Source: Bdellovibrionales bacterium
GTDB taxonomy: Bacteria; Bdellovibrionota; Bdellovibrionia; Bdellovibrionales; Bdellovibrionaceae
Length of the DNA: 64,000 nt
Assembly: GCA_018266295.1 (NCBI GenBank)
Contig: JAFEAQ010000011.1
Location: 781,626 to 845,625, forward strand
Reading direction: 5' to 3'
The notes under the pieces are model-generated. The model was not told the DNA's origin, did no database searches, and was given only the letters and a program-made list of their open reading frames with translations. A program made the translations under genes and the position numbers. Positions 44,865 to 49,621 of this stretch are shown one piece after another; within the stretch, counting starts at the first letter, position 1; each line of letters starts with the position of its first letter.

Positions 44865-45185
44865 CCCATGTTCCATGAGCGAAGCGACTAAGAGATCGAC
44901 AAACTTCCTCGTCGCTTCAGTCTTTTTCTTAGGTTCCCTCTGCGAACAGATCTCAAAGTTAGACATTTCCGTTTCTCTTTGAAACGTTCTCCGTCCGTAC
45001 AATCCATAAATGCTTGAGATTTCAGCATTAAAATTGCTTTTGAAACCAATTGAAACGTCGATCAATCAGTCAAAAAAAACAGAACGTCATTTTTTTGAAC
45101 ACGGAAACGCATCTCAATGCTTCCGGCCTTAGCACGACACTTGCACTAAACTTATTTCGATACTGTAAGTAAGCAGGGGGACAGC
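44865..45185. other. Intergenic region
   Basis: No convincing gene. A minus-strand frame (44781-45065) overlaps the regulator's 3' end antisense and is rejected as real. The region contains TTGAAACG twice on the plus strand (near 44979 and 45049), a possible weak repeat. Confidence 0.3.
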
Positions 45186-46061
45186 ATGAAACAGATGAAA
45201 CAAGTATTCGCCATTTCCACTTTGTCAGGATTGATCTTGGCTTGCCTCATCGGCTTCCAAAACTGTTCTAAAGTTGCATTTACCGAAGATGCAGCAGCAT
45301 CGTCTCTAATTAAAAACGGTATTACTGACGACTCAACCAGTAACAGTAACAATAATAATAGTGGCGACGACTCCAACTGCCGCGTAGACCTTATTAACAG
45401 CACTAAAAACGTAAAAGTTCTTTTTCTTATTGATACCTCCGGCTCCAACGCCAGCAACAATGGCGCAGCAGGAACTGATGTCGGTAAGACTTGGCGCTTA
45501 AATACTATCAATTCATTCATTACTGCTTATGGCAACAAACCGAACTTCGAATTCGCTTTTGCTTATTTCCAAGGCACGAAGGCCGATGCTTTGCTGAAGA
45601 ACTCCAGCGGCCAAGGTATTTTCTCTAAAGACATGAGCGCTATTAATCAGGCAGTGATGGATCTTAAGAATATCAAAGACGAAGGTAATACTCCTTACGA
45701 TGCCGCACTCAGTATCGTTCGCAGTATTATCCACTACGACCAAATGGTAACAGCAACAAAAGACGCTGGTTATGTTGTTGTCATGGTTTCGGACGGTTCA
45801 CCAACAAATACATCATATACTGACAGCAAGAACGGTATAACAAATCTTACGAACGACGTGAATGCGATCCTTGCCGAAGCGCCAAAGCAAATCAGCTTAA
45901 ACACTGTTTATCTTTACAACCAGGCTGTGCCTACAGCTTCCCAAAAGTCTTATCTGCAAAAGATTTCAAGCCTAGGTTCTGGCGCCTTCATCGAGGCTAG
46001 CTCGAACCAAACTCTGCAGATCTCTGACACCGTCCAGGTTCCTAAGACCGTCTGCAACTAG
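45186..46061 (+). CDS. Von Willebrand A-domain lipoprotein
   Basis: A 291-residue protein with a lipobox ILAC (Cys 20). From residue 76 a VWA domain holds the metal site: FLIDTSGSN (D83, S85, S87), a Thr in NTPYDAALS and DGSPTN (acid in SDGSP). Between lipobox and domain is a Ser/Asn/Thr linker rich in Asn. The domain suggests protein or ligand binding at the cell surface or periplasm. Preceded by CAGGGGG before the ATG. Confidence 0.85.
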   Translation: MKQMKQVFAISTLSGLILACLIGFQNCSKVAFTEDAAASSLIKNGITDDSTSNSNNNNSGDDSNCRVDLINSTKNVKVLFLIDTSGSNASNNGAAGTDVGKTWRLNTINSFITAYGNKPNFEFAFAYFQGTKADALLKNSSGQGIFSKDMSAINQAVMDLKNIKDEGNTPYDAALSIVRSIIHYDQMVTATKDAGYVVVMVSDGSPTNTSYTDSKNGITNLTNDVNAILAEAPKQISLNTVYLYNQAVPTASQKSYLQKISSLGSGAFIEASSNQTLQISDTVQVPKTVCN

Positions 46062-46110
46062 GTCGGAATGGATAGAAGTCTAGGTTCCCGTCCCGCTTAA
46101 CGCTAAATAC

Positions 46111-46151
46111 AACTCCTTTTGCTATCATAGAATATGACCGCAAAAGGAGTT
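46111..46151 (+). promoter_or_regulatory. Inverted repeat covering the ribosome binding site of the PLD-like gene
   Basis: AACTCCTTTTGC (46111-46122) and GCAAAAGGAGTT (46140-46151) are perfect twelve-base inverted arms with a 17-base loop. The right arm contains the AAAGGAG ribosome binding site of the GTG start at 46155. Folding would hide it, so this looks like a translational switch; the T run after the stem also allows it to act as a weak terminator. Confidence 0.6.
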
Positions 46152-46154
46152 TTT

Positions 46155-48554
46155 GTGCTTCGATTCTGGCTCTCCGGTATTGTCATCGCCGTTTGTCTTT
46201 CATACTTTCTGCAATTCAATGATTCTCCGAAATCTGGCGGAGCTCGCAAGCCTGCCTCGCTATCACTTTTTAAAGGCTCTGCCCTTGATGCCAAAGACAT
46301 CCTCGAAGCTGCCTCTGCACCGGACTTAAAAGTCACTAAAGCCCGCGTAATGATCGATAACGACGCTGCCTTCGATAGCAAGCTCGAGGCGATCCGGTCA
46401 GCACGCCCGGGAGAGACCATTCGCCTTTCATATTACATATACTCTCAAGACGAATCCTCGGCCGTTTTCTTAGCAGAACTTCTCAAAGCGGCAGCCCGTG
46501 GCGTGCATATTCGCCTGATGGCGGATTTTATTACCAACTACGGCAACTTGGATCTCTTCTCATACTTAGAGGCTCAAGGACACGGCATGATTCAGATCAA
46601 GCTCTATGGCCGACCGACTCCTCTCATCGTACGTGATGTGATGTTCATGACTTCTCCATGTCCCTCTACATCAGATAAGGTCAAACCAACAACTTGCTCT
46701 GATGCTAAGTGGGCTACGCTTGGAAAAGCCTATCCGGATTTCTATGCTCGTCTTCTGTTAGCAGGCCTCTATGATTTAGATTTCACAGCCGTCACGACGG
46801 CGATTATCAAAGGTCAAATTTTAGACATCGATGGCCTTATGAAAAGTGGAAATGCTTCTTCTGATGACAAAAAACAGCTGCTCGAGTTCTTTAAGCTTGT
46901 CTACAAGGCAAAGGCAAAACACGATCCTATCGCCGGAGTGAAAGTGCTCCTCGCTCTTCAGCTCTACGGCGACAAGCTGAACCCGGTCCTCAACGAAATT
47001 TTGGGACGAGTCCCCCTCTCTCAAAAAGGCGACAAATCTCTGCAGGACTGGGAGCATGTGACAGACTTTACACATCACAAAGTTCTCATTGTTGAAAACC
47101 GCTTTGTTCAGCTTGGCGGCCGCAACATAGAAAACTCCTACCATATGAAGCCAAACACACTGACCACGAAGTATATCTTTATGGATACTGATATGTCAGC
47201 GGAGCTCAGTGGCGGAGGCGAGGCCATCTCCAAGGCCTACGATCGCCTTTGGAACTTTAGCACAATGACGGTGCCACTTAAAGATGTCCGCTCACTCATG
47301 CCGAACGATTATGTCGTCAATAGTGAGGCCATGAAAGCTAGTTTCGATAAGTGTGCAAATAAGAATTATCAAACGCCGGAAGATCGCATTCGCTTCGAAA
47401 AATGTGTCGAGTTTGAAATCACCCGCCACCCGAAATATGAAACCTTGCCAGCGCGAATGGCGAAAATCGCTAAAACACTCGAAAACGGAGTAAAGGCCTA
47501 CAACACGCTCTACTTACCAAAGAAAGCATACACTCAATCTTGGAAGACAGGCCCCACATACTCTGACGAGCTTTCGCCAAATGATATGAATGGCCTACTC
47601 CTCGCCTATATTGAAAATCTTCCTTTCGACCGCCGAGAAAAAGAGGCAAATCTCGAGCGCCGCTTCGGTTCCATTCCTGGTCAAGAACTTAAATACGGCA
47701 AGTACATCCATCAGCTTTGGTACAAGGGACTTGAGCACGCCTGCAATACTTCTGTAAAAGAAGGAAAAGAAAAGCGCGTCATTATTCACTCTGCATACTT
47801 CCTTCCTCCGGCACTCCTGCTGAGTGGTTTTGCAAAAATGATGGACGGTACGTGGGACTGCCATAAAGTCCGTGTGACATTGCTAACGAACTCTCCGGAG
47901 ACAACGGACTTGAATCACATCAATATTGCTGCCCGCTACGTTATGTCAAAGTTCTTCCAAACAGTCCAAAACCGTCGAGAGATCTTCGGTTCATACTCTG
48001 ACGCTCGCGCGGCCCGCTTTGAATATTTCGAGTATGTAAAAGAGTCTGCGGGATCCGGTCTTTCTCTCCACACGAAAGCCAGCGTCTTAGGCAATGATAT
48101 GATTATAGGCTCTGCAAACGCGGATGTTCGCAGTTACTATATGGATACGAACAACGGCTTTTTCGTACGTGGCGCTAAAGAGCTCACAGCTTCCTATGTA
48201 GAGTTCATTGATAGCATTACCGCAGACCGTAAGAAAACCCGCGATCTCACCGCAGAGTACAGCAACCCTGCGATGAGCACCGAGAGCATTTATGCCAGTG
48301 ATAAAAAAATGTTAGAAGGGCTTTTATCTAAGAGCGACTTCACCAAGAAACTAAGTCCCGAGATGAAAGAGAAAGTCTTTAGTGCCTTTCATAGCATCGT
48401 TGGCTTTGTTTCTGATGCAACTACAAAAATTCTAATCAAGGACCGTAATAAGTTTGCAGGTGTCGCTGAAAACGACAGCGATTCACAGAGAAGACAGGAA
48501 CAGGCCCAGAAGGAACAAGCGATGAAGTACGATCGCCTCCTGCAGCTTCTATAA
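46155..48554 (+). CDS. Membrane-anchored phospholipase D-like protein
   Basis: A 799-residue protein with one N-terminal membrane helix (about 4-21) and two PLD-type motifs: HHKVLIVENRF with H307, K309 and Glu 314 where Asp is usual; and HTKASVLGND with H639, K641 and no Asp at the usual site. IRLSYYIYSQDESS and VRLTLLTNSPET type strands flank them. Relatives include cardiolipin synthases; the altered acidic residues make catalysis uncertain. I use GTG 46155 because AAAGGAG precedes it; ATG 46134 lies within the hairpin loop and lacks a ribosome site. Confidence 0.85.
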   Translation: MLRFWLSGIVIAVCLSYFLQFNDSPKSGGARKPASLSLFKGSALDAKDILEAASAPDLKVTKARVMIDNDAAFDSKLEAIRSARPGETIRLSYYIYSQDESSAVFLAELLKAAARGVHIRLMADFITNYGNLDLFSYLEAQGHGMIQIKLYGRPTPLIVRDVMFMTSPCPSTSDKVKPTTCSDAKWATLGKAYPDFYARLLLAGLYDLDFTAVTTAIIKGQILDIDGLMKSGNASSDDKKQLLEFFKLVYKAKAKHDPIAGVKVLLALQLYGDKLNPVLNEILGRVPLSQKGDKSLQDWEHVTDFTHHKVLIVENRFVQLGGRNIENSYHMKPNTLTTKYIFMDTDMSAELSGGGEAISKAYDRLWNFSTMTVPLKDVRSLMPNDYVVNSEAMKASFDKCANKNYQTPEDRIRFEKCVEFEITRHPKYETLPARMAKIAKTLENGVKAYNTLYLPKKAYTQSWKTGPTYSDELSPNDMNGLLLAYIENLPFDRREKEANLERRFGSIPGQELKYGKYIHQLWYKGLEHACNTSVKEGKEKRVIIHSAYFLPPALLLSGFAKMMDGTWDCHKVRVTLLTNSPETTDLNHINIAARYVMSKFFQTVQNRREIFGSYSDARAARFEYFEYVKESAGSGLSLHTKASVLGNDMIIGSANADVRSYYMDTNNGFFVRGAKELTASYVEFIDSITADRKKTRDLTAEYSNPAMSTESIYASDKKMLEGLLSKSDFTKKLSPEMKEKVFSAFHSIVGFVSDATTKILIKDRNKFAGVAENDSDSQRRQEQAQKEQAMKYDRLLQLL

Positions 48555-48559
48555 AAACA

Positions 48560-49150
48560 CTAATTGGCTTGAATGGATTGAACCCACATAATTTCGCATG
48601 CTCCGGCCCCGGAATCCTCCCGGGCCAAAGAACTCTTCGCATCACTGCCGTCCGGAAAATTGATTCTGACAAGAAATCCCTTGAGCTCGACAAGCTGACC
48701 ACGTCGAAGCTTTTTAATCTCCTGCTCTACGTATTCTGTCGATGGAATCAAATGCATATTAGCACTGCTTTGAGTAATAAGCCGAGGTTCAGCCGGCGGA
48801 TCGCCTCGCCAAGAATAAAAATAAAAACGTCCCTCTTGCCATATGTTCAGGCTCTCGATGACTTTCGTGTCAGACATAACTCCCCAGCCAAGCGCAACAT
48901 CTATAGGGACGACATGAGCTAGCTTGTCGATCCAATAATGCTCTGTCGAAAGCACCCGTGCTTTGATCGAATACTCAGCCAAGGGATCTAAGACGACGTT
49001 TTTATATTTGATAGGTTTTTCAGAAATATCTTTTTGAACAGGACTCTCTGAAACGAGAACCCCATAAGGATGTGCGACTTCACGCTGGCTCCAAAACTGA
49101 TAGGAGCCAATAACAAGGACTAGTATCAGGATGATGAGCGGGCGATTCAT
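48560..49150 (-). CDS. Membrane-anchored protein of unknown function
   Basis: A 196-residue protein with an N-terminal membrane helix (5-18) and a periplasmic domain containing YWIDKLAHVVPIDVALGWG, FYFYSWRGDPPAEPRLI and SSANMHLIPSTEYV. I have a vague memory of similar WxW-PP-SANMHMIP sequences in diverse bacteria but cannot name the family. Convergent with the PLD-like gene, six bases between stops. Confidence 0.7.
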   Translation of the reverse strand: MNRPLIILILVLVIGSYQFWSQREVAHPYGVLVSESPVQKDISEKPIKYKNVVLDPLAEYSIKARVLSTEHYWIDKLAHVVPIDVALGWGVMSDTKVIESLNIWQEGRFYFYSWRGDPPAEPRLITQSSANMHLIPSTEYVEQEIKKLRRGQLVELKGFLVRINFPDGSDAKSSLAREDSGAGACEIMWVQSIQAN

Positions 49151-49202
49151 ATCGTCAGCTTCCCCGAACTAGTCCTTTTCGGCAAATCAGATTTTGAAAA
49201 GT

Positions 49203-49451
49203 CTAGTAAGGCATTCCGTTGATGTAATCAGAACCAGTGTCGCGGTCGTTACCTTCGTAAGTGCCGCTGCCAGGAACATATGTATCGTCAGAGCTTTGAT
49301 TATCCTGATCATCATTGCAGCCATAAGCCGCACAAGGCTCGGAAGCAGGACGTGGATTGACAGGCTGATTTTTAGAAGAGCCTTTACGAGCTGCTTCTGC
49401 AGTCATAGCTACCGTGAAAACCAACATAGCAACAAATGCCATTTTCTTCAT
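49203..49451 (-). CDS. Small exported acidic protein
   Basis: An 82-residue protein with a signal peptide (cleavage after AEA near 20) and a mature part rich in Asp, Ser, Asn, Gly (DDQDNQSSDDTYVPGSG) with two cysteines. GGAGAG before the ATG at 49451 fixes the start; the longer frame to 49493 is not used. Likely periplasmic; function unknown. Confidence 0.6.
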   Translation of the reverse strand: MKKMAFVAMLVFTVAMTAEAARKGSSKNQPVNPRPASEPCAAYGCNDDQDNQSSDDTYVPGSGTYEGNDRDTGSDYINGMPY

Positions 49452-49621
49452 TTCATCTCTCCTTAGTTGAGGTCCAAGGTATCCCCAAAGCATGGAGTCT
49501 GGTCAATGTGGAAGCCCCCCATTTCCTTTTTTTCACGAGGATGTCGCACGTAAGGTACAGCATTTGCTAAATCTACAGGGAAACGGGCCAACCAGGGCCC
49601 TCTGAAAATAAAGAGGCTTTT

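Follow-up and report, generated by a model that had tools for sequence, protein, structure and literature searches.

A probable terminator-type hairpin overlapping the translation start of a phospholipase D-like gene in a Bdellovibrionales bacterium

A perfect inverted repeat precedes a phospholipase D (PLD)-like gene of a Bdellovibrionales bacterium, and the question that it raises is whether it controls translation of that gene or belongs to the gene before it. The first-pass annotation of the window, which is the whole 64,000-nt stretch that was analysed, had proposed control at the RNA level. The features of the locus are listed in Table 1.

Table 1. Features at the boundary between the von Willebrand factor A (vWA)-type gene and the PLD-like gene (positions in the window)
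Feature	Position	Strand	Basis
vWA-type lipoprotein gene, 291 aa, lipobox-like N-terminus	45186-46061	+	ORF; Pfam VWA_2 E 5e-4
Hairpin 5' arm, with anti-Shine-Dalgarno CTCC	46111-46122	+	Sequence and repeat search
Hairpin loop, with inner stem TCATA/TATGA, -10-like TGcTATCAT and TAGAAT, and in-frame ATG (candidate promoter)	46123-46139	+	Sequence and fold
Hairpin 3' arm, with Shine-Dalgarno AAGGAG 46144-46149	46140-46151	+	Sequence, repeat search, fold
T5 tract: terminator-like U-tract and spacer from Shine-Dalgarno to start	46150-46154	+	Sequence; terminator-like scan
PLD-like gene, 799 aa, GTG start, N-terminal signal/anchor, PLDc_2 domain	46155-48554	+	ORF; Pfam PF13091 E 2.8e-13; orthologs

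The hairpin and the start of the PLD-like gene

The repeat was recovered exactly as first described (46111-46151, 12-base arms, 17-base loop), with the arms AACTCCTTTTGC and GCAAAAGGAGTT forming 12-bp perfect complements, and an inward 5-bp stem extends these to a 19-nt repeat that is 89% complementary. Minimum-free-energy folding of 46100-46170, the check proposed in the first-pass annotation, gave -22.3 kcal/mol versus a shuffle mean of -10.1 (z -4.94), and none of 200 shuffles was as stable. By simple arithmetic about 0.1 repeats of 12 bp are expected per 64 kb; five of at least 12 bp are present in the window, all of them intergenic. The inverted repeat is real and goes beyond chance. Its arm pair occurs once in the 4.2-Mb genome, and the single arms were not clearly overrepresented (58 matches with at most one mismatch vs 44 in the control).

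The hairpin begins 50 nt past the stop codon of the vWA-type gene, which is co-directional with the PLD-like gene and separated from it by a 93-bp spacer. The VWA_2 match of the upstream lipoprotein is weak, being below the Pfam family cut-off. A paralog of this lipoprotein, 45% identical, is encoded on the minus strand at L148:7527-8336 with no adjoining PLD gene, and a 12-bp repeat (CGATTTCCTGAA/TTCAGGAAATCG) is located past its stop. In the PLD protein, the motifs HHKVLIVE and HTKASVLG, read by eye, both deviate from HxK(x4)D, and its activity may differ from that of classical PLDs.

The Shine-Dalgarno sequence (SD) AAGGAG is located inside the 3' arm, 5 nt upstream of the GTG, in agreement with the first-pass annotation, and the choice of this start on the strength of its SD was upheld: the in-frame ATG at 46134 in the loop opens the PLD frame as well, but without an SD, and GTG 46155 is the better start. 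The ATG lies about 6 nt past TGcTATCAT, and a leaderless start there is conceivable. In the fold model, the SD was approximately 99.9% paired in RNA beginning upstream of about 46112; with the 5' arm in the RNA, its mean probability of being unpaired was 0.0008 and the cost of opening was 14-15 kcal/mol. The SD was partly free in RNA from 46116, and its occlusion was lost in RNA from 46120 or later (unpaired probability about 0.3-0.4). On thermodynamic grounds this modelling supports the view that the hairpin hides the SD, provided that the RNA carries the 5' arm. Since the SD is closed with this arm and open without it, the question reduces to the position of the PLD transcript start. The modelled unpaired probability rose from 0.0005 at 30°C to 0.0013 at 42°C and 0.007 at 60°C; the stem thus stayed closed up to 60°C, and the opening at physiological temperature that characterizes an RNA thermometer was not seen.

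A probable terminator-type hairpin at the end of the vWA-type gene

The repeat is best read, with modest confidence, as a hairpin of the intrinsic-terminator type that closes the vWA-type gene and overlaps the PLD start. Its sense-strand stem is stable (-19.9 kcal/mol, 12 bp, five G-C pairs) and lies at a gene's 3' end, with a U-tract directly past the stem (GGAG-TTTTT-GTG, six T in eight), and no second terminator was found in the spacer. In a terminator-like scan for hairpins with T-rich tails, which covered 20 stretches and the window (464 kb), 65 of 403 gene ends were positive versus 8 with reversed sequence, and the present hairpin tied for seventh in stability among the 65. Set against this reading are the modest G-C content of the stem (5/12), the short T-tract, in which the first two of five T's are paired, and the long loop of 17 nt, albeit partly paired. 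It also counts against it that promoter scans of the interval from the vWA stop to the PLD start gave no persuasive candidate. A standard terminator scan did not list the hairpin because its loop limit is 8. The same arrangement was found at a second locus, L052:16385-16434, where CCTCCTAGA-loop-TCTAGGAGG-TTTTTTT-ATG sits past an L,D-transpeptidase-like gene (name read from the sequence), and the 3' arm is likewise the SD, followed by T7 and then the ATG.

Hairpins of this kind are numerous between co-directional genes of this bacterium. The window contains eight perfect hairpins of at least 11 bp, all intergenic, most of them 13-50 nt past a gene end. Over half of the genome, perfect stems of at least 8 bp were enriched throughout the spacers that follow a co-directional gene, by approximately 4-5-fold whatever the distance, and approximately 2-fold in divergent spacers, and the positional control revealed no enrichment peak at the SD relative to other positions between co-directional genes. 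An excess that is equal at non-SD positions is largely the outcome to be expected if hairpins at the 3' ends of upstream genes extend as far as the next start.

Alternative readings of the repeat

A regulated translational switch, in which the PLD mRNA would have its 5' end upstream of 46111 (e.g., from the candidate -10-like TAAATAC at 46104) and its hairpin leader would be opened by a protein, small RNA, or helicase, is live but less likely than an overlapping terminator and ribosome-binding site, and we consider it unlikely. The strong closure of the SD in the fold model would suit it, as would a count over 2.06 Mb, half of the genome: SD-holding perfect stems of at least 8 bp occurred at 11 of 633 genes (non-operonic SD genes with an upstream gap of at least 45 bp) vs 1.5 expected. 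Signal-peptide-like N-termini are encoded by 10 of these 11 genes against a crude baseline of 45%. A 600-kb sample of the relative G076 contained three SD stems vs 0.6 expected. It is also favoured by two tandem genes for proline-rich exported proteins, 72-75% identical, in L160 (G000:C15; minus strand, reverse-complement coordinates 1524 and 3952), where an inverted repeat covers each SD; the loops have diverged and the arms are kept, one pair having changed in a compensatory way and another being broken by an A-C mismatch, which hints that some such stems may be under selection. The SD-stem excess is, however, equalled at non-SD positions in the same spacers, and SD stems containing G-U pairs were not in excess. 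An SD-specific class of hairpins, which first appeared at 10 vs 0.8 expected, was rejected after a fresh sample of this genome gave 1 vs 0.63 and the specificity was lost in the positional control. Among the PLD orthologs, the nearest of which are only 35-46% identical because no other species of the genus was among the genomes searched, comparison of leaders with shuffles identified a significant SD stem in two of about 16 distant genes, namely a 10-bp stem without a U-tract in G076/L037 (p 0.013) and a 14-bp stem in L039 (p 0.003), both of which speak for a switch. About 14 orthologs, including the closest ones (G007/L006 and L003), had none by this test, and the SD is free in most of these genes, so conservation of the stem as an element of the PLD family was not seen among these distant orthologs. 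No vWA gene was found beside the orthologs in the flanks examined. A search of 45000-49500 against Rfam returned no riboswitch or other described RNA family. The first-pass idea that the stem is a PLD-specific RNA switch, and thereby a new kind of control for this family, was not borne out by the mostly free ortholog SDs, the empty Rfam search, the modelled closure to 60°C, the fit of location and U-tract to a terminator of the upstream gene, and the lack of SD-specific enrichment in the genome. It is very improbable that SD-hiding hairpins before exported-protein genes, the PLD gene included, are regulated as a set through one common trans-acting factor that opens them. In G076, the start of an exported-protein gene at L180:12613 closely resembles the PLD hairpin, with CCTTTGCTTT/AAAGCAAAGG over the SD AAAGGAG, then TTTTT-ATG, and TATAAA in the loop.

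More doubtful still is an overlap of the palindrome with the PLD promoter, in which the loop element TGCTATCAT (TGcTATCAT, 46120-46128; five of six matches to a -10, with a TG extension) or TAGAAT (46128-46133) would direct RNA from about 46135, possibly with ATG 46134 as a leaderless start. The PLD mRNA would then never carry the stem, which would matter for read-through RNA only, as in IS10 and T4 late genes, and the SD was indeed accessible in the fold model on RNA starting in the loop. Against this, promoter scans found no good -35 to match the -10-like sequences. A promoter motif model trained on this genome learned A/T tracts only, and no promoter claim is made from it since its reverse-complement control scored equally high. 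Two thirds of the mapped attack-phase promoters of B. bacteriovorus are of the FliA type, TTAAG-N16-CCGATA (PMC3627812), and this consensus is absent at the PLD site. Elsewhere in this genome the CCGATA hexamer (FliA -10) showed strand-specific enrichment upstream of genes (38 vs 10), in agreement with that report (PMC3627812). Least probable, and hardly to be expected, is a DNA operator, i.e., a putative protein-binding site over the PLD start. The 19-nt repeat is nearly symmetric, and in similar repeats A-C mismatches are tolerated as well as G-U, in tiny numbers that are too few to separate selection on RNA from selection on DNA; but the arm pair is unique in the genome and the arms of other repeats differ in sequence, which argues against a shared regulator, and an RNA accounts for the T-tract and the orientation while an operator does not. 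Of the translational switch, attenuator, or operator originally suggested, the SD occlusion thus stood in the fold model and a dedicated PLD switch did not; the attenuator came nearest, because a terminator before the start codon would attenuate transcription derived from upstream.

Proposed mechanism and relation to known systems

Taken together, these results favour a transcription stop signal of an ordinary kind, overlapping the start of the next gene, over a new gene switch. Within the 93-bp spacer, the vWA terminator would have come to share sequence with the PLD start, with the 3' arm also supplying the PLD SD and the U-tract filling the interval between SD and start codon. Polymerase leaving the vWA-type gene would mostly halt in the T-tract, and any read-through RNA would keep the SD closed and be hardly translated. 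PLD protein would come from RNA whose start lies in the 5' arm or downstream of it or, at a low level, from read-through. By uncoupling the PLD gene from vWA transcription, the hairpin may act as a constitutive insulator or polarity element that needs no signal.

The locus resembles intrinsic (Rho-independent) terminators in its stable hairpin, the T-tract directly after it, the nearby stop codon, and the sense orientation; it differs in the double use of the 3' arm and the U-tract, which also serve the next gene as SD and spacer, and in its modest G-C content and 17-nt loop. In IS10 and IS200 transposase genes and in T4 late genes, the SD of the downstream gene is sequestered in a hairpin when it is reached by read-through transcription, as is proposed here, although the PLD gene is neither a mobile-element nor a phage gene and a transcription start inside its hairpin is only putative. 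Attenuators and riboswitch expression platforms with the SD in a terminator likewise terminate transcription or sequester the SD immediately upstream of a start codon; unlike these, the PLD leader had no aptamer, leader peptide, or antiterminator that could be found, and no Rfam match. RNA thermometers (FourU, ROSE) also close the SD in a leader hairpin, whereas the SD/anti-SD pairing here is perfect, with no weak pairs, and modelled as closed to 60°C.

Were the SD-hiding hairpins to prove a regulated set, they would add a new layer of translational control over exported proteins. On the reading favoured here, one sequence in a compact spacer would combine the roles of a terminator, a silencer of read-through RNA, and a ribosome-binding site, which is relevant to annotation and to the reading of operon structure in predatory bacteria.
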